From NCBI RefSeq assembly GCF_036711975.1, contig NC_091971.1:28031501-28095500 (forward strand): DNA of 64,000 nucleotides. The letters run 5' to 3'. Made by a program: the position numbers and the translations under genes. Origin of the DNA: Onthophagus taurus. Taxonomy: Eukaryota; Arthropoda; Insecta; Coleoptera; Scarabaeidae. Positions 9,548 to 61,900 of this stretch are shown here, piece after piece; within the stretch, counting starts at the first letter, position 1; every line of letters starts with the position of its first letter. The notes under the pieces were generated by a model. It was not told the origin of the DNA and ran no database searches. It saw only the letters and a program-made list of their open reading frames with translations.

Positions 9548-11882
9548 TGAAGTCGTTTATCCAAACTCGAGTACAGCGCTCACTTAACGTACACAATGCG
9601 TTCCTGAGTTACCGTACGTATAACGAATGTACGTTAAACGAACACGAAATATCCATAAGAATACGTATATTTATGTTTAATTGGTTCCAAGATGATCTTT
9701 GTTCGCACGAACGTACAAACTTGTTCGTACGAACGTACACTTACGGCCGACTCGGGACTTTCCTACTTTGCTCGTTACACTACTCTATTTTACCACATTT
9801 TGCATAGGGGATTTACCGAAAGAGACCGGACGAAAAAATATCTTTGTGAATTCAATCGATACACGTCCTGAGTTCGCTTCACATCGTTTCAGACATCGTC
9901 CGCGTTAATACATTTTGATCAAACGGGATTTTAGAAATAAAAAGTTGAAAATGAATAAAAGGAAAGGTGACCGCGAGATAGAACAAGGTTCGAAAAGAAG
10001 AAAAACGATTACTTTTGCTGAAAAACTGAAAATTATTGAAATGGCAGAGAAGGGTGTAAAACTAGCGGAAATAGGAAGACGTTTAGGATACAGTAGATCA
10101 ACAGTTAACACAATAGTAAAATCAAAAGAATGTTTGAAGTGTTATGTTAAAGATGGGGTAAATCTTCAACAAACTTCAGGTACTCGTATACGTTCTAATG
10201 TGATGGAAGAAATGGAGGGCATTTTGAAAGTTTGGTTAGACTCTCAATTACACAGAAATATTCCCTTAAGTCTTTCTGCTATCCAACAAAAAGCTAAGGA
10301 AATTTATTCAGAATTAAGAAAAAAAATGGATGAGAACGCAACTGATACGTTTAATGCAAGTTGGGGATGGTTTAGAAGATTTAAAATCAGGGCCAACTTA
10401 ATTAAAGTGAAATTGACAGGAGAAGCAGCGAGTGCAGATTCTAACGCTGCTAGTGAATTTATAGCAACACTAAAAGCTATTGTCCATGATGGAAATTACA
10501 GTCCACATCAAATCTTTAATGTTGACGAAACGGGATTGTTTTGGAAGAAGATGCCTTCCAACACATATATCACTAAAGATGAGAAACGTATGCCGGGATA
10601 TAAAGCTGTCAAAGATCGTCTAACTTTATTACTAGGTGGAAACGCGGCAGGTGATTTTAAATTGAAGCCAATGTTGGTTTACCATAGTGAAAATCCGAGA
10701 GCGCTTAAAGGTGTATCAAAGTCATCAATGCCAGTGATTTGGAAATCAAATCGTAAAGCTTGGGTCACGAAATCTGTATTTGAAGATTGGTATAGAAACA
10801 ACTTTATTCCAGAAGTGAAAGATTACTGCTATAAAAACAACTTAGCGTTTAAAGCATTACTACTTCTTGATAATGCCCCAGGGCATCCAATAACGTTAAA
10901 TGAGTTATGTCCCAATATAAAGGTAATATTTTTGCCACCAAATACGACATCATTAATCCAACCGATGCACCAAACCGTTATAGCCGCGTTTAAGAAATAT
11001 TATTTACGTGCAACTATGGTAAGCATGATTAAAGCTATTGATGATAATAAGGAATTAACGGTTAAGTCTTATTGGAAAGATTACAATATTCATAATGGAA
11101 TTAAAAATATATCTGCCTCTTGGGATGAAGTTAAAGAAACGACAATGAAAAGAGCGTGGAAAAAGTTGTGCCCGCAATTTGTTTATGACGAAGAAACAAA
11201 TGTTGAAAAGCTTCAAAACGAAGTTGTAGAAGGCGTGATAGAAATTGGAACGCGCTTAGGCTTGGAAATAAACGAAGAAGATATCGAAGAGTTAATAGAA
11301 TCACATGACGAAGAGTTGTCTATCGAAGATCTCATGGAATTACAAAAGACAGATAATGTCGAAACGAATGACGATGACGCCGTTGAAGACCTGCCCAAAG
11401 AAAATGTATTAAACTTAGAAACTTTAAGTGAAATTTTAAATAAAATGGAAAATCTCGCCGATGTCATAGAGAATGTAGACCCAAATATGGAACGAAGTTC
11501 TAATGTTGTGGGTATGCTCCGTGATGCGTTTACTTGTTACAAAACCATGTACATAGAGAAAAAGAAGACTGGCCTTAGGCAATTAACCTTAAAACAATTT
11601 TTAACTAAAAAAACTTAAGAATCGATAAGTTAATAATCGTTTATTTATTAAGTTATTTATGCTATCTTTACTTGTACCGACTTTTTTAAATTAGAATAAA
11701 ATGTAAAAATAAGGCTCTTATTTTTCTAGTTTTATTTGAATTCAATCATTCACTTTCTATAAAAAAAATAATGAAATTGGATCTTCGATGTACGTTAATG
11801 CGGAAGACAAATGTACGTTGTACGAACACGAGGTCATAAAACGTCTTGTACGTATCTGTGAACTTACGTAAAGCGGGCGGGT
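9548..11882 (+). mobile_element. Tigger/pogo-type DNA transposon (Tigger-1)
   Basis: The transposase gene is flanked by sequences with TCGTTTATCC-type and GTACGTTAAACGAACACGA-type words. Related words recur in inverted sense on the right (TACGTTGTACGAACACGAGG, then TTACGTAAAGCGGG). These resemble Tigger terminal repeats, but I could not align exact ends or a TA duplication, so the limits are approximate. A polyadenylation signal AATAAA at about 11695 follows the ORF. Confidence 0.6.
9951..11618 (+). CDS. Tigger/pogo transposase, full length but third catalytic D replaced by H
   Basis: This codes for a DDE_1 transposase (CENP-B / jerky-like superfamily) that would bind the transposon ends and cut and paste. 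From the preferred start at 9951 (MNKRKGDREIEQ) it is 555 residues; an in-frame ATG at 9915 adds 12. An N-terminal psq-type HTH (ITFAEKLKIIEMAEKG, then YSRSTVNTIVKS) is followed by a CENP-B-type HTH (FNASWGWFRRFKIR). The catalytic core has FNVDETGLFW (D192) and LLLDNAPGHP (D307). Where Tigger proteins have PMDQGVI, this one has PMHQTVI, with His at codon 10968-10970 (H340). The C-terminus is acidic. The ORF has no stops or frameshifts. It may be a recent loss of activity, or a domesticated DNA-binding protein. Confidence 0.9.
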   Translation: MNKRKGDREIEQGSKRRKTITFAEKLKIIEMAEKGVKLAEIGRRLGYSRSTVNTIVKSKECLKCYVKDGVNLQQTSGTRIRSNVMEEMEGILKVWLDSQLHRNIPLSLSAIQQKAKEIYSELRKKMDENATDTFNASWGWFRRFKIRANLIKVKLTGEAASADSNAASEFIATLKAIVHDGNYSPHQIFNVDETGLFWKKMPSNTYITKDEKRMPGYKAVKDRLTLLLGGNAAGDFKLKPMLVYHSENPRALKGVSKSSMPVIWKSNRKAWVTKSVFEDWYRNNFIPEVKDYCYKNNLAFKALLLLDNAPGHPITLNELCPNIKVIFLPPNTTSLIQPMHQTVIAAFKKYYLRATMVSMIKAIDDNKELTVKSYWKDYNIHNGIKNISASWDEVKETTMKRAWKKLCPQFVYDEETNVEKLQNEVVEGVIEIGTRLGLEINEEDIEELIESHDEELSIEDLMELQKTDNVETNDDDAVEDLPKENVLNLETLSEILNKMENLADVIENVDPNMERSSNVVGMLRDAFTCYKTMYIEKKKTGLRQLTLKQFLTKKT

Positions 11883-14017: not shown

Positions 14018-15952
14018 ATGTCTTGTGGCAAAATAAGATTGGCAGCTGCCATCGCAGCATATTTAATTAAAAAGAAACAAATTAAAAAAAAAACAAAAAG
14101 AAATGTTTGGGTGAGAAATTGGGTGCTGCGGCGCATAGGTTTAAGTTTCCAAAATACATTACTTGAAGAATTGCGGACCGAAGACTCCATGCAGCTGATA
14201 AATTTCCTGAGAATGTCTAATGATGATTTTGAATACATTTTATCTTTAATTCAAACAAGTATTCAAAAGCAGGATACTAAAATGAGATTGGCTATACCTC
14301 CCAAAGACCGGCTTTTAGTTACTCTTCGATTTTTGGCAACAGGTAAGAAAAAAAACAAGAAAAATATTTTTTAAATCATTTTATTCATAAAAAACAAGAA
14401 AAATATTTTTGATTCATTTTATTTTCATAAGTATTTCAAATTAAATGTAAATTATGAGTATATTTATTTTGTAGGCGATTCCTTTCATTCGCTTATGTAT
14501 TTGTTTCGAATCCCTGTATGTACGATTGCAAGGATTGTGTTGGAATGTTGCGAGGCTCTGTACCAATGTCTGAAATCAAAATATTTGAAGGTAAATATTA
14601 AAATATGTAATTTATATAAAACATTTTCCAAAAATACCTTGTGCGTTGTCCGAACATATAAAAAATTGGGTAGATGTATTGCAAGGCAGCATAATTGATG
14701 ATTGACTGGAGCTTTCAAGCCCAGTTGTACCTGAACTAAGTAGTTGCGTGTCCGAGTTGTCTTCATCGTCTTCGTCCGTCACTTTTAGAATAGCCTGCTG
14801 AATTAATCTTTTAAGTTTACGCTTGCTTCCAGATTTTCTCAAACCTCGAAGTTCTGAGGCGATAAAGTCAAATATTTGGTATTCATCAGACGGTTTTTGC
14901 ATTATTTGCAGAGCATTTTCCAATACGACGTCATGTTCGTCTTTTTCTGAATTGTTTTTTTTTTGTCGTTTCCGTGGTACTAATTGGACTTTTTCGGACT
15001 GATCGGTGATGTTTTCATCGTTGTCTAATGTAATTGAAAGATCCTTAAAGAAATAAAGAACACAAAAGCATTTGTAATTGAAAGCTCCTAAAAACAAATT
15101 AAGAACAAAAAAGAATTTATTAGGAATTAAACTGCTTTTTTTTAGGTTCCATCAACGGAAGAAGATTGGCTTCAGTATTCCAACGGATTTCACAACAAAT
15201 GGAATTTTCCTAATTGCCTAGCTGCTATGGACGGGAAACATGTGGTGATACAAGCACCAAAGAAAGAAGGCAGTGTTTACTTCAATTATAAAGGCACACA
15301 TAGCATTGTACTGTTGGCGTTGATTGGACCTAATTATGAGATAATTTACTTTGATGTGGGGTGTAATGGTAGAATTTCGGACGGGGGAGTATATAACAAT
15401 TGTGAATTATCGAAATGCCTTCAACAAAATACATTGCATTTGCCATCTCCACGATCACTTCCTGGTAGAACAATTCCAATTCCATACGTTATTGTTGCAG
15501 ATGACCCATTTGCTCTTAAGAAGTATATTATGAAGCCATTCCCTTTCAAGAGCCAGCCAGTGCAAAATCGTGTTTTCAATTATCGGCTTTCTAGGGCCAG
15601 AAATGTGGTTGAACATTTTTTTGGACAAATTGCAGCTCGTTTTCGAATTTTACGTACGCCCATTCTTTTAAGTCCACAAAAAACAAGAAAAATTGTTAAG
15701 GCCATTTGCGCTCTGCATAACTGTCTGTTAAATCGCAATTCTCAATATGCGTCGTCTATGACATTTAATTCTCCTGTATCCGATAATCAAGGAGAGTGCC
15801 GTACAGAAGGGATACCAGAAAGAAACATGTTACCACTTGAACTACATAATTCACGCAGTCAAGCACAAGAACCGAAAAATGTTCGTAACGAATTTGCTGA
15901 ATACTTTATTTCACCAGAAGGAGCAGTGGAGTGGCAATATAGGCATATATAA
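14018..15952 (+). CDS. PIF/Harbinger DDE transposase (3 exons)
   Basis: Exons 14018-14342, 14475-14590 and 15146-15952 join in frame (GCAACAG|GTAAG, GTAG|GCGATT, GAAG|GTAAAT, TTTAG|GTTCC) to give 415 residues. The protein is a HARBI1-like nuclease. AAMDGKHVVIQAP supplies the first Asp, CNGRISDGGVY the second, and RARNVVEHFFGQ the Glu, with the typical ALHNCLLNR motif afterwards. An N-terminal basic segment (KKKQIKKKTKR) may be a nuclear signal. No stops or frameshifts are seen, so it may be functional. HARBI-type transposases need the partner DNA-binding protein encoded on the opposite strand. Confidence 0.9.
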
Positions 15953-21708: not shown

Positions 21709-22408
21709 AAAAATGTTAAAAATAGAAGAGTGTTGAAAAAAAAAACGGTATCCGAAGCATTGTACAGAAAAACTTTTACTACAGAAGTTGTAGCAAATTG
21801 TACCCTTAACGCAATGGTCTCTAACATTTTTGCTCCCAGATGCATCAATATCGAGAATTTTTCAAAAATGTGAAAATTAGAAGAGTGTTGAAAAAAAACG
21901 GTATCCGGAGCATAATACAGAAAAACTTTTACTACAAAAGTTGTAGCAAACTGTACCCTTAACGCAATGGTCTGTAACATTTTTGCTCCTAAATGCATCA
22001 ATGTGGAGAATTTTTCTAAAATGTTAAAAATAGAAGAGTGTTGAAAAAAAAACGGTATCCGAAGCATTGTACAGAAAAACTTTTACTACAGAAGTTGTAG
22101 CAAATTGTACCCTTAACGCAATGGGCTGTAATATTTTTGCTCCCAGATGCATCAATGGCGAGAATTTTTCAAAAATGTGAAAATTAGAAGAGTGTTGAAA
22201 AAAAACGGTATCCGGAGCATAATACAGAAAAACTTTTACTACAAAATTTGTAGCAAATTGTACCCTTAACGCAATGGTCTGTAACATTTTTGTTCCTAGA
22301 TGCATCAATGTGGAGAATTTTTCTAAAATGTTAAAAATAGAAGAGTGTTGAAAAAAAACGGTATCCGAAGCATTGTACAGAAAAACTTTTACTACAGAAG
22401 TTGTAGGT
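21709..22408 (+). repeat. 154-bp satellite, five monomers in alternating A/B types
   Basis: The anchor GAAGAGTGTTG recurs at 21725, 21880, 22033, 22187 and 22340, a 153-155-bp period. Monomers 1, 3 and 5 share TGTTAAAAATAG upstream and GAAGCATTGTACAG downstream. Monomers 2 and 4 share TGTGAAAATTAG and GGAGCATAATACAG. The array is therefore an A-B-A-B-A higher-order repeat of about 308 bp. The long minus-strand ORFs across it are by-products of the repeat. Confidence 0.92.
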
Positions 22409-22619
22409 AAACACGGAATGGGACCAGATGCATCAACTTCCCGATAGCGTTGTCTGGCCGATAAGTTAGTTTGTACTGATTATCGACAGGATAACTTATC
22501 GGATACTCAGAGGTGCCGATAAGACGGTTATCCGCCAGATTTGTATGGTTACCAAGGTTTTTATATAACAACATTCACAAACCTTGTCTGTAGTGAAAAA
22601 GTTTGGTTAGTTTGTTATT

Positions 22620-23099: not shown

Positions 23100-23385
23100 T
23101 TGGATAAAGTACATACCGTACGTAACGGTCATGAAACCTGCGGATGATCTCTGCGATATTATGTAATCAAAAAGCAGTTGCCGCGATCACATTGAAAAAG
23201 CTAAGAATCAACGATCCAACATGGATGTATCCAACATGGTGAGCCACTGTAGATCCAACTCACGTACTATCATTCGACTTTGCCCAAACAGTGCATTACC
23301 CAGTACTTCAAGGCGCTGAGAAAATGTGCTGTATTTGGTATCGTCAATGAAAAAAAGAAAAATCCAGTACAATTATCTCATAGAT
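23100..23385 (+). pseudogene. Fragment of an insect transposon-associated ORF
   Basis: Shifted frames give YVTVMKPADDLCDIM, FDFAQTVHYPVLQGAEKM and, in another frame, YNYLIDQ. These resemble a recurring insect transposon-associated protein that I can recognise but not name with confidence. It is cut off by the start of the hAT element. Confidence 0.35.
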
Positions 23386-23671
23386 CAGAGATGCACAGAC
23401 CGCGGCCCGCCGGTCGAATACTGGTGGCCCGCCGACAGCAAAAATAATATTCTCGTACATTCGAAAAATAATAAATATTAAAGTACTTTGTTTCTTTTGA
23501 TATTGTGAGCGACGTCCATAAAACTTATGAAAATCATTTAAATACCGCGCCAGTTCATGAATGAAACGACGCCGCGGCCGCGCCGCCTCAAGCGCCCAAA
23601 AATACTAAGTCAAGTAACATCGACTTAAGTCGATAGCAATAGTCCCGAATTCCCGATTGCTCGCGTAGATA

Positions 23672-23770
23672 CACGAAGCTTCCAGAGTCGGTTTCGAGAT
23701 TTCTCCAGACAGTTTTCGACTCTATACGCGCGGTATAAAAGCCACGCTAACCGCAGCCACCGACAGTTCG
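23672..23770 (+). promoter_or_regulatory. Heat-shock-gene-like promoter driving the hAT transposase
   Basis: GAAGCTTCCAGAG (23675-23687) is close to a three-pentamer heat shock element (GAAnnTTCnnGAG). A weaker cluster, TTTCGAGATTTCTCCAGA, follows at 23692-23709. TATAAAA lies at 23734-23740, and a candidate initiator ACAGTT lies about 30 bases further on (23763-23768). The leader after it is A-rich with AAAG/GAAG/AAGTG words, as in insect hsp70 leaders. The arrangement is seen directly; that it responds to heat is inference. Confidence 0.55.
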
Positions 23771-24142
23771 GTTTAAATTTGAGTGAAGTGTCAACAGAAA
23801 GAAATAAGCGCGAAAATACAAAGCGAAGTTACAAGTGATTGAGAATAAGTGCAGATTAATAGTGTTTTTAGAAGGCAATAGTTCTAGTGTAGATTTTAAC
23901 TCGACTATGGTGTCATATATTTTGATCCACATTCAACGTAGATTACCTGTTGCAGTGTTAACCCGCCAAGTGCCATGTATAATTGTGTTGTGAAATCGTA
24001 AGTAAAACTCTGTTATTAATAAGTGTTTCCCTACCTATTTAATCAATTATTTTTGGTAATTTAAAAAAGGATGGGTAATTTAAGTAGGTACTGTAATTGT
24101 TTTTAGGTGCTGTGTTAATCCTAGCCAGGATTAGAACACAAC
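23764..24142 (+). other. 5' leader of the hAT transcript with one intron
   Basis: The probable transcript starts near 23764. An intron runs from GTAAGT (23998) to TTTTTAG (24106). The second exon contains the initiator ATG at 24143. Confidence 0.5.
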
Positions 24143-25333
24143 ATGGACAAGCCAGGACCTAGTAAAAAACGTAAGGTTAAAGATGAAAATCGGCAGTTTC
24201 AAGAAATTTTGACTGAGAAATACTTTTTCGTATGGTCGCATAACAAAGTCGTTTGTTTAATTTGCAAGAATTCTGTTGCGATTGCAAAGGAATATAATGT
24301 AAAAAGGCACTATGAAACGCAGCATCCTACTTTTACCAAGTTTACAGGCGAATTAAGAAAGCAAAAAATGTTGTCTTTAAAACGGGAGCTTATTGGTCAG
24401 CAAACTATGTTTATAAAACCCATTCAAGATTCAGAAACAGCTACAGAAGTTAGTTATGAAATTTATCGAATGATAGCAAAGCGAAGTCTCCCCTTCAATG
24501 ATGGGGATTTTGTAAAAGAATGCATAGAAATTGCCGCTAAGAAAATGTGTCCAGAAGCAACAAAAAAGTTTGAGAAAATTCAACTGAATCGTATGACTAT
24601 CCAAAGACGAATTTTGTCTTTGTCAGGTAATATTGCGGAACAATTAACTGAAAAAACTAAGATTATTGAATTTTTTTCATTAGCACTCGACGAATCCACT
24701 GATATTAGTTCCACAGCTCAACTTCTCATATTCATACAAGGTGTTACTCAAGATTTTCAAGTCTTAGAAGAGTTATTAGGAATGTGTTCATTGAAAGGTC
24801 AAACCAAAGGAGTTGATGTACTCAATGTACTTTTGGATGAGTGTTCAAAAACTGATTTGGACTTATCAAAATTATCGGAAGTTACGACTGACGGTGCTCC
24901 TTCGATGATTGGTGTCAATTCCGGGCTAGTTACTTTGCTGAAAAAGCATCTGCAAGAAAAAAACATAAACGCTGAAGATCTCATGCAGTTTCACTGCATT
25001 ATACACCAAGAAGCCCTCTGTTCTAAAAAAATTGAATTTCAAAATGTCATGAAAGTGGTAGTTTCGACTGTAAATTTCATAAAATCACGAGGGCTCAATC
25101 ACAGGCAATTCAAACAATTCCTTGATGACATCGAAAGCGAATATGGAGATTTACTGTATTATACAGAAGTAAGGTGGCTAAGTCGTGGATTAACACTGGA
25201 ACGATTTCTAAATTTAATAGAAGAAATTGGTATATTTCTGGCGAGTGGCTGTGTCATCGATTCGTCCCCCAGCGACCATAACAAGCTAGTTTCGGCTAAA
25301 CAACTAACTAGTACGACTGGATATAATATTTAA
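24143..25333 (+). pseudogene. hAT transposase (GTF2IRD2/ZBED-like), C-terminally truncated
   Basis: The 396-codon ORF starts MDKPGPSKKRKVKDENRQF. Residues 30-65 form a BED-like finger (VCLICKNSVAIAKEYNVKRH with downstream His). The RNase-H-like core includes FFSLALDESTDISSTAQ (first Asp), VTTDGAPSMIG (second Asp), the FHCIIHQEALC block and VRWLSRGLTLERF. Soon after this the sequence diverges (ASGCVIDSSPSDHNK) and stops. The catalytic Glu and the C-terminal dimerisation domain, about 180 residues, are therefore missing. The intact ORF up to the break suggests a recent deletion. Confidence 0.85.
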
Positions 25334-25763
25334 AAGAATATTTTACTTGCTTGAAAGGTATAACTAAATATCACCACTTTATAATTTGCGAGAATGGCAT
25401 AGTGAAGCTGAAACAATATGCAAATAGCGAAGAATTTGAGCAGGTCAGTCTTATGTTCAAGCCAGTGGATGAGCAAAAAATGCCAGAAAAGCTTAAACGG
25501 TCGTAAAGTCACTTGAAAGACAGTGGTATTTATTCAAGACCGTTCGGAACTTAGTAACTGATCCCAGCAAACAAAATGAACTAGCACCGGAACCGCTGAA
25601 AAAGTTGGAAAAAAAGAAAACAAAAGATAACCGCGGTAGGATGAATGAAGATGTTTTGAAGGAGCAGAATGCGAACATAAAACAGAAAAGAAAGAGACAT
25701 AAAAAGGTGTTAAAGGCACCTTGCATTAAACTTTCGATGCAAATAACTCAGCCGCGAAGATAG
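25327..25763 (+). pseudogene. Unidentified coding remnant with one frameshift
   Basis: Two open frames abut. 25327-25500 includes ITKYHHFIICENGIVKLK. 25500-25763 includes SLERQWYLFKTVRNLVTD, then a Lys-rich tail (KKLEKKKTKDNRGRMNED...KRKRHKKVLKAP) and TAG. A single +1 shift joins them into about 145 residues. The basic tail and the RQWYLFKTVR segment look like real protein. I do not recognise the family. It starts where the hAT transposase loses homology, so it may be the far side of the deletion or a separate host-derived fragment. Confidence 0.4.
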
Positions 25764-26437
25764 TTGCGAAGCCAAGGAAGGACCGCACTTTACACTATTA
25801 GAATGATTCAAAATGTCAAACTCGACCTCTTGACACCTAAACCCCCTTTCCGTAGTCCAGGTCACAATTATATTTATTAATTAATTAATAATTGTTAATA
25901 TTTAGTTCGTAGATAAATATTACGTAGATATAAAACTGTGCGTGAAGTGCTACTAACTTCACACACTGTTTCATAAATAACTATAATATGATGGCATAGA
26001 CTTACTACACTAGACCGCGCCTCCATAGCAGCTGCTATAAGAGCGTGTGTTACCAAGATAGGTAGGCAACCCGTAGTCCAAGGAGGGGCAGAAAAGCGAA
26101 TGTAGCATTCAATGTAGTGCATATCTCCTTTACTACAAGTTGCGGTATTATTTTAGAGCAAACCCCAGGCTTATATTGTATATTGGCTATTATTGTAAAG
26201 TACTATGCTGTAGTACAATTTGGTAACCTACTGATGTTTAAACAACGTTTGTTTGTTATATATTTGCCTTATCCTGACATTAATTTCATTCACATCTTTC
26301 TCTTGATGATGTATGCGAAGCGTGAAATACACTTTTAGAATTAATTTTATGAGTTGTACAATGTGATTATTAATAAATAAATAAATAGGGTCTTGATCTA
26401 AAATATGCTAATTTAAAGACGTAAACAGAGTGCTAGT

Positions 26438-26726: not shown

Positions 26727-29700
26727 TTACTCACAAAATCTCATAGGTAATTTGACTTCGCGTCCACATCGCGTTTTCCGAACAGCGTCACTCTCGCACT
26801 TATCACTATCTTCTTCAACCGATGCTGGCTCCGACGTCAATAAGGGTACTGGTTGCTCTTCTGAATCTTGACTCGTGCACTCTAAGGGGTAGAGTCTCTG
26901 AAGTGGACGGATAACTTGTCCATATGGAGTGTGGAGTTTCACTAGTCGCACCTTTCCATCGATACCAGGTATCAGTTCAATAACCCGTCCCATGATCCAG
27001 TCAAGCCGTTTCGAATTGTCATTTCCAATTAAAACCACTTCGTTCAAGCTCACGTTTCGCGGATTTTTCACGAATCGCGTTTGTCGTAATTGTCCTAGGT
27101 ATTCCGACCGAAATCTTTTGCGCAAATCGTCACGTAACTTTTGCAAATATCGATACCGTCTGTTTAACGCGTTTCTATCCACGGTATCTAAGTCCGGTAC
27201 ACCACTTTCTCTCAGATCGCGCAGGGACACTACCGGCGATAGAGTAATTAAGTCCCCCGTTTGCTCGGAAAGAAATGTTAATGGTCGCGAATTTACGACA
27301 GACTCACAATCACATAAAACAGTATACAGTTCGTCTTGTGTCAATTTAGCTTTACCTAGCAGTTTCTTTAGCAGTTGTTTAAGCAGTCCTATAAGGCGTT
27401 CCCACCAACCTCCCCACCATGGTGCAGACGGCGGATTGAAACACCATTTAATCTTCTGTGCTGTGCCGAAATTTGATACTTCTACCCAATTTAATTTAGA
27501 AAACAGATTTTCAGTTCCGACAAAATTTGTCCCATTGTCTGAATAGATCACATGTGGTCTACCCCTTCTAGCAATAAATCTTCTCAAAGCCCTTATGAAT
27601 GTTGCCGTCGATAACGAATCCACCAACTCTAAATGAACCGCTCGATAAATAGCACACGTGAACAAACATATCCAGGTTTTTCCTCCATCGCGTAGATACA
27701 ATGGACCGGTCAAATCCACTCCAACAACCTCAAAACAAACAGCATCTTTCACACGATTTGTGGGTAAAGGCGGGGCTTTCTCTTCCGCACATTTTGCAGT
27801 GTATCTTTTGCAGATAACACAATCGTTCACGATAGTACGAATTGCTTTTCGCCCTCCAATCACCCAATATTTTTCACGTAAAATGTTCATTAAGCCTTGT
27901 ACTCCCACATGACAATTTTCGATATGGCAATCTCTAATCAACCTTCTTGTCACTGGATGCTTTCCTGGAAGAACGTAAGGACTCCGGAAAGTTTGTAAAT
28001 CGTCTCTCATAGATATTCTCGTTTCCAACACCAAAATTCCATCTTCATCTTTCCTAACAACATTCAGGGTTGAAAGCCGATTATATTTTGCTGGAAAACA
28101 TTTTTGCTGAATGATGGACATCAGCCTCTTTTCTGCCTCATTTTCCTCTTCTACAGTTAGAGACTTTTCTCTTATCACATCAGGATATCTACAGTTATAC
28201 ACAAACCGCAACATCCAAGCAATCATTCGAACGTTTTTCCTATAACTTGAGAAAAATCGATAGAAACGACTTGCATCGTTGATATTCATCATCGACACAA
28301 TTGTTTTTTTCTTTCTTTCAGCATTAATTTCTTCTTCATCTTCGTCCGGTTTAATCCCAGGCCATTCATTTGGAGGTTTCATTAGCCACTTAGGGCCCTC
28401 CCACCATTTCGATTCGAACAATTGTTTGGGAGAACACCCTCTAGATGGCAAATCCGCTGGGTTAATCGTACCCGGTAAATGTTTCCATGCTTCTACGTTC
28501 GTGAGTTCTCTGATCTCCTTCACCCTGTTCCACACGAAAGTTGACCATTCTTCACGACGTTTTATCCATCCAAGCACCGTGGTAGAGTCAGTCCAGAAAT
28601 AAACATCCTCAACGACGTTTAAGGTTTCTTGCACGCTTATAGCAAGTCGAGCACCAATTGTAGTCGCTAACAATTCCAGTCTTGGAATGGACATCTTCTT
28701 GATCGGCGCCACTCTCGACCTTGCTTGTAACAAGATTGTTTTGACCCCTTCACAGGTTTCAACTCTCAAAAAGACAGCCGCAGCATAAGCGCTGCCGCTA
28801 GCATCGCAGAATGTGTGTAGCGATGACCTGTAGTTCTCGTTTGGCCCCATTCTTATCCACCTGGGAACCTCTATACGAAAAATTAATGGTAATTCGCTTA
28901 CCCATTTCATGAACATTTTGTTCGTTTCATCATCTATCTCCTCATCCCATCCAATTTTATTTTTCCACATTTCCTGTGACATCAGCTTAGGGTACAAAGT
29001 TGTGGGGCTGGTTACTCCAATTGGATCGAATATTCGCTAAGCGTAAGAAAGAACAATTCTCTTCGTAATCACGCCATTCGTTGTCTTAGGTGTATAACAA
29101 AGCATTAGAGTGTCATGTCTTGTATTCCAATTTAATCCCAATAATGGCACAATGTGATCTTTCAAACTTTCTATCTTACTACACTCCCACCCTGTCAACT
29201 CAAACCTACCTTCGGCCATCAGCGCAGTAGCTTCTCTTACGAAAAGATCTTTTGTTTGCTCATCCGGTACGCTAGTAACACAATTGTCTACATAAAATGC
29301 TTTTCTTAACCGGTTTACAGTGGATTCAGAATAAATGTTTTCCTCTTCTCCTCCACAATATTTTTCAATATGTTGCTCTAAAGTAGCGCCGAGAAGGAAA
29401 GGACTTGAATTCACCCCAAATACCACCCTTCGGTGACGATATAGTAAATCTTTTCCTTCGTCTGTCTTCCATATGAATCTCAGGAAATCTCTATCCCTGA
29501 CATTCAGGCTAATTTGTAAAAACGCTTTTCTGATATCCGATGTTACTCCAACCCTTTCTATTCTAAAGCGTAACAACACATCAGGAATCAACTCAATCAA
29601 ATTTATACCTTTTTCCAAGCAATCGTTTAGAGATGGTCTTCCTTTTTCCTTGGCTGAAGCATCAAATACCGGACGCACCTTAGTTGTGGTACTGGACTCT

Positions 29701-31925
29701 TTGAATACGGGTCGATGCGGTAAATAATGTGCGGTATTGTCGATTTCATCTTGAGGTATCCTTTCTATAATCCCTTCCGACAACCACTGTGCAAAAACAT
29801 CAGAGTATCTTTCAACGTCCCCAGTTGCCTGAAGTTTGTTGTATACAGATTGAAGTCTCTTCTTCGCCAAATTGTAATTATTCGGTAATGGTGGATGTCC
29901 TTCCTTCCAAGGCAACTGCACCTCATACCGTCCTTCTTCATTTACTACTGTCGTCTCCTTAAATAATGTTTTAACTGCCTTTTCTAATTCAACTTTAGAC
30001 CGGTTCTCTTCTGGATCCGAAATTCCTAGTACATCCAGCTGCCAAAGTTTTGAAATCGGCATATCTTTTGTCAATAACGACGTGCTAGTGGCAAAAACGT
30101 TCCCTTTTAAAACTTTTGTCGTTTTTATTTTTCCCATAAGTGTCCACCCGAGTAATGTCTCCAACGCTACGAGTCCACATTTCAATTGCAGTTTCTTACC
30201 GGTAAGTAGTTTCCCAACAACATCTGCTCCTATCAATACGGATACTTCACGGCAATTGCCTGTGTCACTCAATTTAATACCAGCGTTTTTTAATTCCGTC
30301 GTCCAAGCCCCATTAAAAACATTGGGAATTGCGGAACATATAGTTGGCTGATCTAGAACTTCAAATCTACAGGCAAATTCACCATCAAGACGCACCAATC
30401 TTATTTCATAGCATCGATGTTCTTGTTCTTCAGTTTGAGTTCCTCCAAATAACGCATGAACAATCCTTTCTGTTCGTTTTGTCCGACACTTTATTTCGGT
30501 GGCAACAGATTTCAAGACATAAGACCTTTGAAATCCAGTATCTATAATAGCCCGAACTTCCTTCTCTCCGCCGGACCCGGTTATCTTTACCACAAGTGTC
30601 TGCAGAAAAACGTGCATATTCGTGCAATTACTCAAGTTTACATCTTCGGTCTTCTTTTGAAGTTGACTCGCCGATTTATCTGCTTCTAAGCTGGGACACA
30701 ACAAAACAATATGTTGCTCTCCACAAAGAACGCATCTTAATTTCACGCGACATCTTCTACTCAAATGTCCCAATTGTGCGCATCGAAAACAGGCCCTTTT
30801 GTTATTCAAAATCTTTTTCTTTTCGTTTAAATCCATTTTCTGCGCTTTAAAACATTTGTCCGTAACATGATTCCCTTCACAAAAAACACACTTGCTTGCA
30901 AGCCCATTGTTGATGAGCCCCGCTGCAGTGGCTTGTGTTGGTTCCACATTCTTCATCTTCGCAGGCTTTCCTTTGGTTTTTACGCCAAAACCCTCCACCG
31001 CCAAAGCGATCCGCTCTTCTCCTTCAACCTCGGCCTTCAAAAACTCCATAAGGTGATTGAGCCTAGTCTTTGACGGATTACTTGCTTTATCTGTGGGTTC
31101 CGGTGTCCTTTGCCAGACACGTAACAATTCCTCTGGTAAACAGGACTCGACAAGCGGATACAACATGGCCGCACAAGTGTCGGTAGTAATTCCCAGCGTT
31201 TCCAAGGCTCTTAGTTGTGTTTCTAATCGGTCATACAGTGTTGCCATCTGGCATTTTCCACCGCGACCCAATGCGTTATTGAGCACTAACTTAAGCAATT
31301 CCCTAACATAGACTTCCACGAGCATGTCTTTTCTTCCAAAACGCGCTTCCAATGTCTCAATTGCTTTGACATAATTGTCTGCGGTCGGGGGAAAACTGTC
31401 TATTAAATCTTTGGCCCTCGAGTTTGGTATCATTGCCGAAATTAAATATTGAAATTTATCTTCCGGTGCTAAATCCTCGTCCTCGTGTACCTTTTTAAAT
31501 TGGCTCCAGAAAGCTAACCATTCTCTTATGTCCCCGCCGAATTTCTTGAGTTCGATCTTAGGTAGTTTGAATTTATGCGATAAACTTTGATTTGCGAGTA
31601 TCGGCGCAGATGTCGATGCCGTCGATACCGCGTTTGAAAATACTTTATTGCAACGAACTTTTAATTTAAAAAATTTAATCTGGTAATCGTCGCATTTTGC
31701 AAGTTCGTCATCAATATCTTTGTCTGCTACTCCGTTCGCAATCATTAATTTTAAAATTTGAGCATCGCTAACCTTTAGGTCTCCCATTTTCTCCGCTAAG
31801 AGGTTAAAAATAGCTTCCAAATCATCGAGATCAGGGTTGCTTGCTGCCAAAACAGTGTCTACTTCTCGGGATGATCGAGTAAAAGCGCTGCGAAGAAGTG
31901 CACGCCGCTTTCTTTCTTCGTCCAT
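26727..31925 (-). pseudogene. BEL/Pao Gag-Pol polyprotein with one in-frame TAG
   Basis: One frame of about 1730 codons runs on the minus strand from the likely ATG at 31925 (MDEERKRRALL) to 26727, broken only by TAG at about 29037-29039. In order: DUF1759-type gag (KKFGGDIREWLAFWSQF), zinc knuckles (CFRCAQLGHLSRRC), DUF1758 protease (RAIIDTGFQRSYV), and RT (VRPVFDASAKEKGRPSLND, then the Pao-type YVDNCV). After the stop come RNase H (TFCDASGSAYAAAVF), the integrase finger and core (VGVDLTGPLYL, VIYSDNGTNFVG, CESVVNSRPLTF) and a C-terminal DUF5641 region. The stop falls right after RT, in a position where Pao proteins have Gln; CAG to TAG is one transition. Confidence 0.93.
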
Positions 31926-32027
31926 TATCGAAAACCACACCCAAACAAATTCTAACACGCAAAAGTGATAACGTCACGCGTACGGAAATCTTCACGTCAG
32001 CCTCGCGTACGTAAATCCAATCTTGTG

Positions 32028-52900: not shown

Positions 52901-55900
52901 TTATTCTGTCAAGTGTCAAAGCACCAGTAGTTGTTCATCAGAGTGTTAAATTAATTTTTCTTATTCGTTAACGTGTAAAAGTCAATTTTTCACAGTCACA
53001 TTAATGAACAAATGTGTTAAATTTATTACTCTTTTTCCTTAACACTTAAAACTTTATAAAATGTCGTTTATTTTTCTTAACCAAGAGTTAGCGGGTATTC
53101 ATTTTGTAGTCCGAGAGTATAGGAGAAGATATCCCAATAGAGGACATTTGCATCCTTCTCTGTTTGTGAAAGTGCATAGATAAATACAGGTAAACAGGAG
53201 CAAAAATATAGAGAAAATGGAAAAAATGTTAGCATTGTGGGTTGATGATGCCAATCAAAAAAATATGCCTGCACACAAGCAGACATATGCGAACAAGCAC
53301 TGTTGATTTTTTCTGATTTGAAGGCGCAAGAAAACACTGACGAAACTTTCTTGGCAAGCACTGCGTGGTTCACGAGGTTCAAATCTCGAACCAATATCAG
53401 TAGCACTAAACTAAGCGGCGAAGCGCGAGCGCTGATGTAGCAGCAGCAGCAGCTTACCCTCAAAAGTTTCAAGAAATTGTGGAACAAGGGAACTACTCTG
53501 CAGATCTCATCTTCAACTTTGATGAAACAGCCCTCTATTGGAACAAGTTGCCATCGAAAACGTTTATTTTGCGAGAAGAACATAGCCCTCCTGGATATAA
53601 AGCTGTCAAGGATAGACTGACTGTTTTCTTGGTATCAAATATTTCTGGTTCCATAAAATTTAAGTAAATGGTAGTGTACTATTCCCAGAATCCACGGGCT
53701 TTTAAAGGTCTTGACAAAAGCTCCCTGCCAGTTTTTTGGAGGTGGAATAAAAAGGGTGGATTACTCGGGAGATTTTCACAGACTGGTATAAAAATTATTT
53801 TTGCCCTACTGTACTTAAATTTTGTGACCGAAATTATTTTCCAAAGAAAGGAATCCTCCTATTAGACAATGCCCCAGGACATCCGAAAAATCTTGTCACG
53901 TTAGACACGGGATTGGACGTCAAGGTAATTTACATGCCCCCTAACACAACCTCCGTTTTACAACCCATGGATCAGGGGGTAATTTCTTCCTTTAAAGCGT
54001 ATTATTTGCGCATAACATTAAAAGCAATGATACTAATTCCAATCAGACCGTTAAAAATTAATGGCGATCATACTATATTTTAAAAGGAATAAAAAATCTA
54101 AAGTGTGATTGGGGCGAAGTGACCAACAATTGTTTAAACAGCGTTTGGCGTAGACGTCTGCCTGGATTTATACAAAGTGCAAGTGTAGAAGTGGCAAATA
54201 ACATTAACATAAACGAAGACATTATCAGGCTTACACGCGAATGTATTCGAAGACGTAACAATTGAAGATGTGACCGAACTATTAAACGTGCATGACTAAC
54301 AACCACTCTCAAATCAAGAATTAGAAGAGTTGATGGAGGCATATGATCGCCCTCAATCAGAAAATCCCGAAGAAGAAGAGAAGGATGAGAAAGGAAATTA
54401 TAGGAAAATCCTAAAAACGGACGATCTAACTCGTATCCTTTCCTCTATAGAAAGGTTAACAGGTGATCTATCTCACAGAGATAGATGGGAATTACAATCG
54501 AAGCGCAAATGTTAAAAGAAGTGTCAAAGCTGCCGTTCGACCTTATGCTACGATTATGCAAGAAAGGAAGCAACAAGCAAAGCAAATGAAATTGGATGCT
54601 TTTTTCAAAAAAGTGTGGGACTTTAATTTAGTACTGACGAACTAGTGACTTAGTATTTATTTCAAAAAAATCATTATTTATATTAAGAGATTATTATTTA
54701 TTTCGAATATACAGGGTGAGTCAATAGTGCGGGGACGGAAGATAGTGGCTATACTATTGAAAATAAAAGAAATGTTTTTATGCCATCATATATTACCATC
54801 AAAGCTGTATCGATTAAAATTATTTTCAGCTATACAGGGTGTTTCACTATTCCAGGACCATACTCAACTTCATTTTTTTAAATGGAACGCTATGTATTTT
54901 TTTACATATTCTGATTTGCTGTCTTAAATGCTACGACTGCATATCTTGTTTTTAAATTTTGAATGCAAGGTTGCCAAGTTATTATTTTTTTTGTGAAAAA
55001 GTTTGAAAATTCAGGTGGTCACTTAAAATTCGTTATCTGCATTAATATTGAATATTGAAGATTGCAATTTGGGGTGTCGATAAACAAAGCTTGGGTCTTT
55101 CGAACACTGTTCATACTATTGGATATCATTGTACAGGGTGTTTAGCAAAAGCGATTAATTTATGCAATGTTTGGAGAACCATAACTTTGTTATTTTAAAT
55201 GGAACACCCCGTATTTTTCTAAGGTTTCGGATAGCCTTATTAATTATCTTTCATTTTTGTTAAGCATATGGTATCTCTAATACGTGTACTTTTTGAGAAA
55301 ATTAGACTGCTTTAAAAATGTCGGCATAAACGTGATTTATTAAAAAAAAGTAGGCTTTGAAAAGATTTTTATAGCAATACGAAGTGTCAAACAATTAAGT
55401 TTTGATTTCTCTTTGTTTGTTCATAACGTGTTTCCAAAATCTGTTGTTTGATTAAAATGAATTTTAGTCAAGAAGAACTTATTGATATGGTATATTTCTT
55501 GGGTGCGGGAGAGCGAAATCCATTTCTTGCCTCTAGACTTTACGCTCAACAATTTCCAGAGCGTAGGCATCCTAGGGTTGAAGCATTTGAAAACCTTCAA
55601 GAAAGGTTTGAAAGAACAGGACACGTCAAATACGAAAAAAAAGATCGCGAGAAACGAACCACTCGGGAAGAGAACGAACTTTCTGTATTATTAAAGGTAG
55701 TTGAAAACCCGCACACTAGTACACGCAAAATAAGCAATGAGCTTAACGTCAGCCAAACGTCTGTTTCAAGAATCTTACGAAAATATAAATTTCATCCATA
55801 CCATATTCAATTAGTACAAGAACTTGATGCAACTGATTTCCAGAAAAGGCTAGAATTTTCGGAATGGGCATTAGAAAAAGTTCAACAAGAGTATAATTTT

Positions 55901-58900
55901 TTTGATTATCTATTATTCAGCGATGAGGCAACGTTTCACAAAAATGGCTACGTTAACCGCCATAACTTTCATTATTATGATACTATCAATCCTCATTTTA
56001 TACGACCAGTAGACCACCAACATCGATGGTCTGTAAATGTCTGGGCAGGGATAGTAGGATCTTGTTTGATCGGGCCGTATTTTTTCGAGGGAAACGTTAA
56101 CGGAGAATCTTATTGGAATTTTTTGGAAAATCACCTGCCAGCACTTTTAGGAGATGTTCCACTAAACGTTCGGTAAAGAATGTGGTTTCAGCACGACGGT
56201 GCGCCACCTCACTATAGTAGGATAGTTAGAAGACATTTAGACAGAATTTTTGTTGATCGGTGGGTAGGCAGAGGAGGTCCTGTTAGATGGCCACCACGTT
56301 CTCCGGATTTGACAAAATTAGATTTTTTTTTGTGGGGATATGTAAAAAGCTTGGTATATGAAGAACCACCAACGACGAAAGCAAATATGATGAATCGTAT
56401 TCGCGATGCGTTTGAAACAATAAACGTAAACATGTTGCAGAACGTTAATGTTTCATTTCTTAGACGAATTGAAACTTGTGTTCAACAACAAGGAGGCTAT
56501 ATTGAACATTTACTTTAATTTTGTTTTGTTAATGGTTGTTGCTTAATTCTTCATTGTATTTTTTTTAATATTGTGTATTGCACCTATATCTTTTTCGACA
56601 TAAACTTACTTATATGTTCAAAAATGTTGTTCCATAGCCTACATTTTGTAAATAAATCACGTTTATACTGACATTTTTAAAACAGTCTAATTTTCTCAAA
56701 AAGTACACGTATTAGATATATCATATGCTTAACAAAAATAAAAGAGAATTAATAAGGCTATCCGAAACCTTAGAAAAATACGGGGTGTTCTATTTAAAAT
56801 AACAAAGTTATGGTTCTCCAAACATTGCATAAATTAATCGCTTTTGCTAAACACCCTGTACAATGATATCCAATAGTATGAACAGTGTTCGAAAGACCCA
56901 AGCTTTGTTTATCGACACCCCAAATTGCAATCTTCAATATTCAATATTAATGCAGATAACGAATTTTAAGTGACCACCTGAATTTTCAAACTTTTTCACA
57001 AAAAAAATAATAACTTGGCAACCTTGCATTCAAAATTTAAAAACAAGATATGCAGTCGTAGCATTTAAGACAGCAAATCAGAATATGTAAAAAAATACAT
57101 AGCGTTCCATTTAAAAAAATGAAGTTGAGTATGGTCCTGGAATAGTGAAACACCCTGTATAGCTGAAAATAATTTTAATCGATACAGCTTTGATGGTAAT
57201 ATATGATGGCATAAAAACATTTCTTTTATTTTCAATAGTATAGCCACTATCTTCCGTCCCCGCACTATTGACTCACCCTGTATATATAGGATATGTATTA
57301 AATAAACATGTTAGATTGTTCTTAGAATTTTGACATGGAACCTAACCTATCGTCCATTATAATTGTGTTCATTTTACGCCGATTTTGTTTACGCCGGTGT
57401 CACTCGGAACGGAACCCCGGCGTAAAACGACGTTTACCTGTAGTTGAACAAGGGCTAAATAATGATGTTAGACTGCAAAGAAATTTTAGAAGAAAAATTT
57501 TCCGTGAGTTCTACAGAGACCCACTACCAGGCTATGAAAAATGGCGTGTTACGTTTTGTCGGTGGATTGCTAATGCAACAGCCAACAATCGAGATCAGGA
57601 CTGCTAATAACAATCGGGATTGTTAACTTTCATAACATACATGTTTGGGCGCATGAAAATTCCCACGCAATTCGGCCACGAAACTTTCAACATGAATTTA
57701 GAGTCAACGTCTGGGTAGGTATTTATAATAATCATATTTTCGGGCCTTACTTTTTGCCATCACGACTAAATGCTGCGGCGTTCTTGCAATTTTTGGAAGC
57801 CGAACATGCCAATATGTGGGATAATATTGATTTAGATTTAAGAAGAAGCCTGGTTGCAACTTCATGGTTGTCTAGCTCATCATGGTAGGGTAACAAATAG
57901 AATAGACAACCATTTTCCTGCAAGATGGATTGGTCGTGGTGGACCAGTTGTATGGCTCCCACGATCTGCAGATCTTAATTCTTTAGTCTTTTTTGTATGG
58001 GGATATTTGAAAGGAAAAGTATTATTATAGGATTAGGAATGCTTGTAATGACATAAGGTCGTTCTTAAATACCATTACTCGATCAGTCATTCGTCGATCA
58101 GAATTATGTAACCAGCAAAATGATATAAGAGTACCCATTTTGTTTAAACAAGTACAGAGAATAAGAATTTTTTTTTTAAATTTTTTTCTTAAGTATCTGT
58201 AAAGAATACGTTTCAGAGCAGCTATCCTCTACCGGCTATAGTAAAACGGACTCCATAATCGTCTTTCTTATGCCAAAAAGCCTCCATATACGAAATTTGA
58301 ATAGAACCGGTTGAAATAAAAAAATAAATTAATAATTTTATTTGAACACTCTGTATCTCCAAAACAAAGCGTTTGTCGACCTATGTTTATATGAAGGTTT
58401 TTTATTAATTTTAAAAGATCTACCGATTGTTAAAGTCCTGTTACAAAAACCTGAAACACCCTGTAAAAATGAAATGGTGTGAGACCGAGTAGGACTTCAA
58501 GAGCAGCCGTCGGACAAGATCTCATTGCACCCATTATATTAAGACATGCTAACCGCTGAATTTGTGCCAGCTGTTGTTGTGCTGTCTTATAATTTGTTTT
58601 TGGTCACCAAACCAGCGAGGCATAGACGAGCATGGGTCTGTCATTCGTGGTTTGAGATCCCAGTTCCTTCCGAGAAGCCTGCGGCAGATCTGGTTAGCCA
58701 TAATGGCCTATTATTAAGTACCTAATTACCCTTAGGTATTTAACTTCTGTTTTGAAGTTAATAGTTCTGCTTTCAATGAAGGCTTCTCCCAATTGTAGCT
58801 TCCTTCTTCTAGTGAAAGAGACTATTTCGATTTTGTTTGGATTGATGCAGAACCCATTGCTTCTGCACCAAGTGCTGGTGAGTACTAGGGCTTTCTGCAT

Positions 58901-61900
58901 TAGTTAAGTTATGATTGTGTCATATTTACCTCGGATTGTGATTACCAGGTCATCAGCATACCCCTGAATCATGAATCAATTTTTTGTTAAGGTGTTCATC
59001 AAGTCATCAATTACCAGGCACCATATGAGAGGTGAGAGCACTCCCCCTTGAGGACATCCTCTTTGCGCCTTAATAGTCAATGACTCGCCTCCCAGACTGG
59101 CTGCGATCTGCCAATTTTTCAACATGGCTATACTTGATTTGATTTTCGACGGATGTATATCTTTAACATTTAGAGTATTCTCTATGGATTCATAGGAGGT
59201 GTTATCAAAAGCATCCTCTATGTCCATGAAAGCACATAGGGCTATCTCTTTGGTTGCAATTGTCTCCTCTAAAGTTTTTGTCTTTACTACAGTTATTATC
59301 CCAGTATCCAGTTTCTATCATGTTTTATCGCCACTAACTTATCTATAATTTTCAATCTATTAACTAAGATTGATCTTCTCCGAATTCCAAAAATGTTATA
59401 TACAGCGTAGGTCAGATTTTAATTGGGAAACTTTACAAGGGCGTAGCAGTTGTAAAAATAACACAAGTTTTTTATACAGGGTTTCCCAAAAGTAACGGAT
59501 AAATTCGTTAAAACAATTAAAAACAATTTATGGAAAAATCGCCAAGACTGGTCTAAAGATTTAGATTTTTTGGAATTGTTTGGTATAGAATAGCAGTGGT
59601 CCATTTGTATAACGGAATATGACAGAAGACTTTTTTCTGAATTTAGTATAGTCAGTCAAGTTTCATTATGTTCCATTCAATTGAGATAGAAAAATAGTAG
59701 CCATGCGTAACCATGGCAACAAACTGCTTCAAATATCAAAAATTTAGCATTGTTTTAATAAAATATCTGAAACAACTGGTTGCCATGGTTACGCATGGCT
59801 ACTGCTATTTGTCTACTTCAAATGAATGGAAAATCATGAAAGCTTAAGGCAATTTTTCTCTAAAATTTGGTTATATAGCTAATATTAATTTTAGTTGTAC
59901 CAAATTCAGAAAAAAATCCTCTTTCATATTTCGTAATCAAAATTGGGGATTGCCATTAAATAAAATAGCGATAAAAAATTTAAAACCTTAGAACGAATTT
60001 AATTAACGAATTTATCCGTTACTTTTGGGACGCACTGTATAAACATAGGGTCGTAACTCTTTTGTTTTCGAGCTATGAGCGATCAAACTTGAGCCAAAAA
60101 TTTACATTTTGTTTTTTTTATTTGGGCTACGGAAATGTTTTATCTGGAGACTTTTTAATATTTACGGGTGTCGTTTGGAAATCTCGAAAAGCATTTAGAC
60201 CCTTTTTAAAGATTGTGAAAATCTTTGAAAATATCTGGTGAGTGTAGGAAAAACATCAATAAGCTTTTGGAGATTTTTTGACATTTCTGAGTGTCGTCTG
60301 GGAATCTCCAAAAGTATTCAAAAAGTGATTTGACACATTTTGATAATTTTGGAAACAATGACAAGCTTAGTTTTCTAATTTCCTCTTTTTTAGTTTCTAA
60401 TTTCCGGTTGTTAAGTACAATTAAGCATTTAGCTGAACGTTTCGTGCATACTGCCTCTATTAGAAATGTTGCATAAAGTCCCAGAAACTTCAAAAACAAC
60501 GACGATGCACATAATCCGGCATCAATATCCAAAATTATAATGACCATTCAAGTACATATCTGCGTTTCTGGAGTATTGAAAATCTACGTCAAATGCACGA
60601 ATAGTCATTGCATCTTTTCAATGTGACGTTTTAATCATGTTTTAATGATGTTTTGTCGCAAATTTATGAATTGGGTCTCGAGCATTGTTGATTTCAACAG
60701 GATGTAGCTACCGCTCATAAAACTTGAGCCATAGACTCGGGCAACGATGAAACTTTTGAAACACCTTTCCGGTCCCTCTGGCCTTGCGTCAAATCTGGTC
60801 AGATCGTGTAATCTGTTTTTGGGGCTTTTTGAAATCTTTCTCCAAATCATGTTCATATAGAATTACTGCGAATTAGTTTTTAATTAAATTTCAATTTATT
60901 ATTCATTCTTACATATTTCGGTAAATTAAGTTGTACTTAACAATATTAAATTAAAGAACAAGACTTTGTTAGCTCTTTTAGCACAAAATCTTTAAATCCC
61001 GCTCTTTATCCCCATCCCTCAACATCCCTTGACTAATCATCTTTCTTCGCCACAACTTTCTACGAATCATCATTAATTGATTTGGTTTTTTAGACTGATC
61101 AAATAACATTAATACTTATCGAGTCAGTAATAAAGATGTTAAAAGATGAGCGAAATATGTTTAATGAAGTTAATAGTTCCAAGATAATTCATGAATTGTA
61201 TGGAATGACGTTGGCGAAGAATCTTAAAATAGGAGCAAGTGCATTGAGAGCTTTATGTGCAGCTACGGAACGGTGATTTTAATTTAATTTTTTCCTAAAA
61301 AAATAATGAAATAATTTTAATTGTTTTCAAAGATACTTCCCATTCATTTCTGAAGAACTCCAATCCAAATTATTTCCCATTATGTATAATAAGAATTGTG
61401 TTCTTGCTAAAGAAGCGGGGAAATTCTTTATGCTTTCTCAGAGAAAAATCAACGCTGATGTTAAAGGAATATTAATAGATATGGTAAATTATCGCATTTG
61501 TTTACCAATGGTAAGTGTTTAATGAACTGATTAATTCAAAACTATTTGAAATATTATTTTAGTATAAAAATGTGCCTGAAGATTTTGTTGAATCGATAAT
61601 CGATGAGGCACACGAACTTTCCGATTTTACAATGATAACTGAAATGTCATTGAGAAATGATCTAGATTTAGATTTTAATCAAGAAGTTGTTTTATTGGAA
61701 ATTTTTGCCCATGCGGTTATCATTAAAATGACTGGAACATCATTAAAACCAAGAGTTGATTCCAAAGAAATCTCTTATAACCCCGAAGAGGTGGTTGAAA
61801 TCCTTAATCAAATACTACCTTCTTTACACAGGTTATTCCAAAAATATTCCACCGAAACACAATGTTTAAATAATCTATTATTGATAATGAACAAAATACC

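Follow-up and report, generated by a model that had tools for sequence, protein, structure and literature searches.

A hAT transposase gene with an upstream region laid out like a heat-shock promoter

A hAT transposase gene in the window, by which we mean the whole 64-kb stretch of DNA analysed, has the layout of a heat-shock gene upstream of its ATG, and we hold with modest confidence that this is an HSF-type promoter of its own, made up of tandem heat shock elements (HSEs), a TATA box, an initiator, and a leader with a predicted intron. The promoter belongs to the element itself and is carried by other copies too. It resembles host heat-shock (hsp) promoters in the order of its parts and in the score of its HSE array, which is in excess of chance. 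Such a layout, as read from the DNA, suggests that heat or other stress may induce the transposase. The features of the region are as follows.

23378..23385, plus strand: 5' flanking 8-bp target site TCATAGAT, of the form nnnTAnnn; its 3' partner is gone with the 3' end of the element
23386..23398, plus strand: 5' terminal inverted repeat CAGAGATGCACAG; the 5' end of the element is exactly 23386
23553..24066, plus strand: the block that copies L032-L038 lack through a shared gap, with promoter, leader, and the greater part of the intron (blastn breakpoints, good to 1-2 bases)
23649..23688, plus strand: eight contiguous alternating HSE pentamers, three perfect and five with one mismatch
23692..23721, plus strand: second HSE array (log-odds score 14.2)
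23734..23740, plus strand: TATA box, TATAAAA
23763..23768, plus strand: initiator-like ACAGTT, a motif match only, with the putative start site at the A at 23765
23765..23997 (approximate), plus strand: predicted noncoding exon 1
23998..24106, plus strand: predicted leader intron, 109 nt, with consensus splice sites GTAAGT...AG
24143..25243, plus strand: 5' part of the hAT transposase coding region, with its ATG at 24143
25250..25800, plus strand: a different repeat replacing the 3' part of the element, with matches elsewhere independent of the hAT part

The initial annotation had described, upstream of the hAT ATG, a three-pentamer HSE, a weaker second HSE cluster, TATAAAA, an ACAGTT initiator, and an intron in the leader, and all of these are present: the three-pentamer HSE (GAAGCTTCCAGAG at 23675-23687) is the tail of the eight-pentamer array, the second cluster is the array that follows it, and the consensus sites at the intron's two ends are those expected if the leader is spliced. 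The predicted start, the A within CAGTT, sits 31 nt from the TATA box. Read as spliced, the leader would be 269 nt long in the window copy and 271 nt in copies L025 and L026, in both of which it is free of ATGs, a state reached by 27 of 20,000 composition-preserving shuffles of the L025 leader. Exon 1 of L028 is likewise ATG-free, and L027, which is broken within exon 1, has one ATG close to the break. The window copy has ATGs in exon 1 at 23907 and 23975, where the aligned copies have none, and in L026 the 5' splice site is mutated, with loss of its GT. The leader had also been called A-rich; it is so, to a degree that is only mildly unusual (0.42 A vs 0.34, sd 0.07).

The hAT copy of the window occupies 23386-25243. 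Its homology to other copies ends at 25243 and the different repeat begins at 25250; thus, the window copy is 3'-truncated and its open frame of 396 aa, which continues to 25333 inside the unrelated repeat, is partly foreign. The copy is dead: truncated at its 3' end and with two upstream ATGs, it cannot make a complete transposase. We searched the genome (291 Mb, 33 contigs; the window is C6:28031501-28095500) with the first 140 bases of the element, found at least 25 places that match its 5' end, and fetched 20 copies, 10 kb each, including the window's own. One of these, L033, is 2192 bp long without the 514-bp promoter block, so a full element would be approximately 2.7 kb. The copy nearest full length on the 5' side, L025, has another element inserted and no recognisable 3' end.

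Target sites and termini are of hAT type. Perfect 8-bp target site duplications flank 11 of the 13 copies for which both ends were found (the flanking 8-mers mismatch in L037 and L039), and the short terminal inverted repeats start with CAG (CAGAGATGCACAG at the 5' end and, in other copies, CTGTGCATCGCTG at the 3' end). TA occupies target-site positions 4-5 in each of the 18 5' flanks that could be read, in agreement with the nnnTAnnn consensus given for the Buster group in the accessible text of PMC3517528. L033 has an open transposase frame of 605 aa, in which a profile search found the PF18658 Spin-doc zinc finger above its cut-off (E 8.3e-11), zf-BED below its own (12.4 bits vs 20.6), and a weak match to the PF05699 hAT dimerisation region (E 0.0031, 17.7 bits, under the cut-off of 21.4); the same search found no PF05699 region in the truncated window frame. 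PDB sequences gave no match to the 396-aa frame, and of 10 pattern matches to the transposase in viral contigs none was confirmed as a relative. Mean pairwise divergence among the 20 copies is approximately 2%, and a tree built from the parts they share has the shape of a star, its terminal branches measuring 0.5-1.4% and its support values running from 0 to 81. The star-like tree and low divergence suggest that the family is young and arose in one recent burst. We read the window element as the decayed remnant of a hAT transposon that was recently active and has target sites of the Buster type.

The surroundings hold several other repeats and frames. Just upstream of the element lies a tandem array (21710-22496) with units of approximately 153 bp and five copies of a 35-nt core. 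Elsewhere in the window are a Tc5/pogo-like transposase frame of 567 aa (9915-11618; DDE_1, CENP-B_N), a DDE_Tnp_4 frame of 241 aa (15227-15952), Bel/Pao retrotransposon frames on the minus strand (26727-31958; Peptidase_A17, integrase, DUF1759), and a frame at 61572-62447 that matches a cohesin SA/SCC3 HEAT-repeat and is probably a host gene. A Tc3/mariner-like frame (55448-56176) contains, at 55837-55861, an HSE-like array that ranks second in strength in the window (score 19.1), probably a chance occurrence. The element nested in L025 (6792-9473 of the reversed sequence) has a frame that resembles this Tc3/mariner-like frame by eye.

An HSE array upstream of a TATA box, beyond what chance would place there, is what distinguishes the element. 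Taken as evidence by itself, the three-pentamer HSE was rejected, as 17 equal scores occur in the window where approximately 14 are expected, which is chance level. Arrays of seven and eight pentamers are the top-scoring ones in the window; of 60 shuffled windows one attains them, and approximately 0.02 are expected per 64 kb. With log-odds array weights that we devised after the array had been seen, the element scores 25.1 compared to a mean of 7.3 and a maximum of 15.5 at 600 control TATA sites, and it falls inside the range of 12 host hsp promoters (10.0-35.4; six hsp70, six small hsp); the host hsp90 promoter array scores 19.1. Under five weightings, none of 829 control TATA sites reaches the element score, with a thin margin under the strictest (element 17.3 vs control maximum 16.7), while 5 to 9 of 13 host hsp promoters score as high as the element or higher. 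None of 50,000 shuffles reaches the element array score, an array of this kind would arise by chance approximately 3 times per 32 Mb of window-like random sequence, and, across the 254 kb of fetched DNA that we scanned, scores above 20 were found in element copies only.

It is possible, and in our estimate somewhat unlikely, that the gene has an ordinary TATA/initiator transposon promoter and that the pentamer array is coincidental or serves another factor. This reading draws on the quality of the individual sites. In the 200 bp before its TATA box, the element has at most two perfect pentamers in a row, a run that 115 of the 829 controls reach; the case for HSF therefore rests on the length of the array and not on perfect sites. 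Three consecutive perfect GAA/TTC pentamers do not occur in the element, nor do they in 5 of the 13 host hsp promoters, which have runs of one or two (the other eight have runs of three to five), and there is no perfect HSE trimer anywhere in the 64-kb window. Matches at the level of trimers are as frequent as chance predicts, and an AGA array is likewise high, second among the 32 possible trinucleotide arrays (z 5.1). The same ranking, however, puts the GAA array first (z 6.5), the array lies directly upstream of the TATA box, and its score is one that neither the controls nor the shuffles attain. We accordingly prefer an HSF-type promoter and ask how it relates to those of the host.

Host genes were identified by profile search, and the element was compared with six genes from the hsp70 search (PF00012), six of the seven hits for small hsp (PF00011), and one hsp90 gene (PF00183). 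The initial annotation had specified an hsp70-like promoter. The heat-shock-gene layout holds, as a property of the element that other copies have as well; the tie to hsp70 in particular is not supported, there being no apparent leader intron in those genes and no demonstrated homology. Like the element, the hsp70 genes (L044-L049) have HSE arrays that end 13-27 nt upstream of TATA and leaders of 0.42-0.44 A; unlike it, they show no apparent intron in the leader, the ATG being 138-157 nt away from TATA, and four of the six have longer runs of perfect pentamers. The host hsp90 gene (L056) has an HSE array, a TATA box, a noncoding exon 1, and then a 96-nt intron directly before the ATG; the order of these parts is that of the element. 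It encodes a chaperone, and its promoter has no notable sequence similarity to that of the element. In layout, with its leader intron, the element thus resembles host hsp90 more than host hsp70. Four similar hsp70 genes (L044-L047) share contig C1, where two are arranged head to head approximately 3.9 kb apart, and a repeated stretch upstream of hsp90 holds identical HSE-like words at L056 1405-1429 and 1707-1731.

Alignment to host hsp70 promoters and leaders, the check proposed in the initial annotation, gave a marginal result downstream and none upstream. Downstream, local alignment to the four-paralogue hsp70 group was equalled by 9 of 846 controls before correction for nine gene groups; upstream there was no signal, 186 of 846 controls being as good. 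Averaged over the nine hsp gene groups, the downstream value was reached by 44 of 846 controls, and the upstream value was no better than controls (433 of 846). Among the real hsp groups, seven of nine stand out upstream, with 0 to 18 of 846 controls as good, against 73 and 758 for the remaining two, while the downstream test is a weak one, in which real groups range from 1 to 497 of 846. Anchored alignment to the six hsp70 promoters gave twelve values, of which one is notable (L047 downstream, 1 of 204 controls and 2 of 500 shuffles) and a second is weaker (L045 downstream, 13 of 204 and 7 of 500). A six-sequence blastn of the element against hsp70 returned E 0.010, and the element and the hsp70 group have a 13-of-14 word in common, CAAAGCGAA.TTAC. 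Descent from host hsp70 was rejected as a demonstrated relationship, since the alignment signal is lost after correction for nine gene groups. A lack of similarity to host hsp promoters had been named as grounds for giving up the idea of a stress promoter; on this the outcome was divided, the alignments demonstrating no homology to hsp genes.

The other copies had likewise been proposed as a check, both for the same leader and for its absence, and the family has both. Part of the promoter is present at seven genomic places. In six of the 20 fetched copies (L024-L028 and L030), over 30% of a core of 160 bp (approximately 23601-23760, array and TATA) is preserved, and in 14 it is not. TATA is retained in five copies (L024-L028), and the array is at full strength (25.1) in L024, L025, L027, and L030, weakened in L026 (19.3), and lost in L028. 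Seven copies (L032-L038) keep the ATG region without the promoter and share a gap from 23552 to 24067, with junction letters that are identical in six and changed by one letter in L038. A second gap, starting at 23525 and ending at 24378-24382, is common to L039-L042; L043 has one that resembles it but is separate, and L029 and L031 have individual gaps of their own. Because L032-L038 retain the 3' splice site and 3' half of the intron, deletion is a simpler account of their gap than later insertion, and the opposite course, in which an ancestor with no promoter gained the block by insertion, was rejected as the preferred reading. The star-like tree of the 20 copies does not polarise gain against loss of the block.

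How the element came by such a promoter is a separate question. That the promoter, leader, and intron of a heat-shock gene of the host, or of an earlier host, were captured as one block would account for the complete co-linear hsp order, down to an hsp90-like leader intron, for the downstream match and shared word with the hsp70 group, and for the fact that 23553-24066 is the block absent from the seven gap copies. We nevertheless consider capture unlikely. Genome searches with 23600-24000 (E <= 0.001) and 23640-23900 (E <= 10) returned element copies only, within the limit that such searches score few candidates and a diverged donor would be missed; the alignment signal fails correction and has no upstream counterpart; the splice site kept by the gap copies would favour deletion; and the tree gives the block's presence or absence no direction. 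Capture from hsp70 in particular is not supported, since none of the comparisons demonstrates homology to hsp promoters of the host. The alternative origin, to which we give close to an even chance, is convergence, in which a stress promoter was built by point mutation inside the transposon lineage with no donor gene. The searches that found no donor, the imperfection of the pentamers, and alignments that demonstrate no homology to hsp promoters all agree with it, although array, TATA, initiator, ATG-free leader, and intron together would need many steps.

If the promoter is of HSF type, HSF trimers would occupy the array during heat or proteotoxic stress, binding would raise transcription from the TATA box and initiator and with it the amount of transposase mRNA, and stress could then bring more excision and insertion, with promoterless deletion copies moved in trans. 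The most far-reaching version, that an animal cut-and-paste hAT drives its transposase from a complete promoter acquired from an hsp gene and that heat stress triggers its bursts of transposition, including the recent star-like one and the spread of promoterless copies, strikes us as improbable. The question of whether stress directly triggers transposition is old, and a good part of the work on it deals with loss of silencing or with the LTRs of retrotransposons. If a DNA transposon does carry an HSF-type promoter of its own, the link could be tested on a single gene, and sister copies that lack the promoter, present in the same genome, would serve as natural controls. Such a transposon could also scatter HSEs close to host genes, which is what Helitrons do in Caenorhabditis.

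Among the matches listed, and in the portions of the open-access literature that these cover, we recognised no hAT element that has a heat-shock promoter of its own. ONSEN is an LTR retrotransposon of a plant and in this is unlike the element. It is described in the accessible text of PMC8376061 as a heat-activated retrotransposon of Arabidopsis, and the likeness is that of a mobile element activated by heat, a response that the hAT element would share if its promoter acts as predicted. The nearest precedent for a DNA transposon with HSEs is that of the Caenorhabditis Helitrons, including Helitron1_CE, whose transposase mRNA, according to the accessible text of PMC6927752, increases on heat shock and depends on HSF-1 for this increase. 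Helitrons are rolling-circle elements with HSEs in dense clusters (same text, PMC6927752), whereas the element, a cut-and-paste hAT, has one TATA/initiator promoter and a leader intron. With Mar and other Buster-group hAT elements, for which the available passages of PMC3517528, selected on other subjects, mention no heat-shock promoter, the element shares nnnTAnnn 8-bp duplications, short terminal inverted repeats beginning with CAG, and deletion derivatives.
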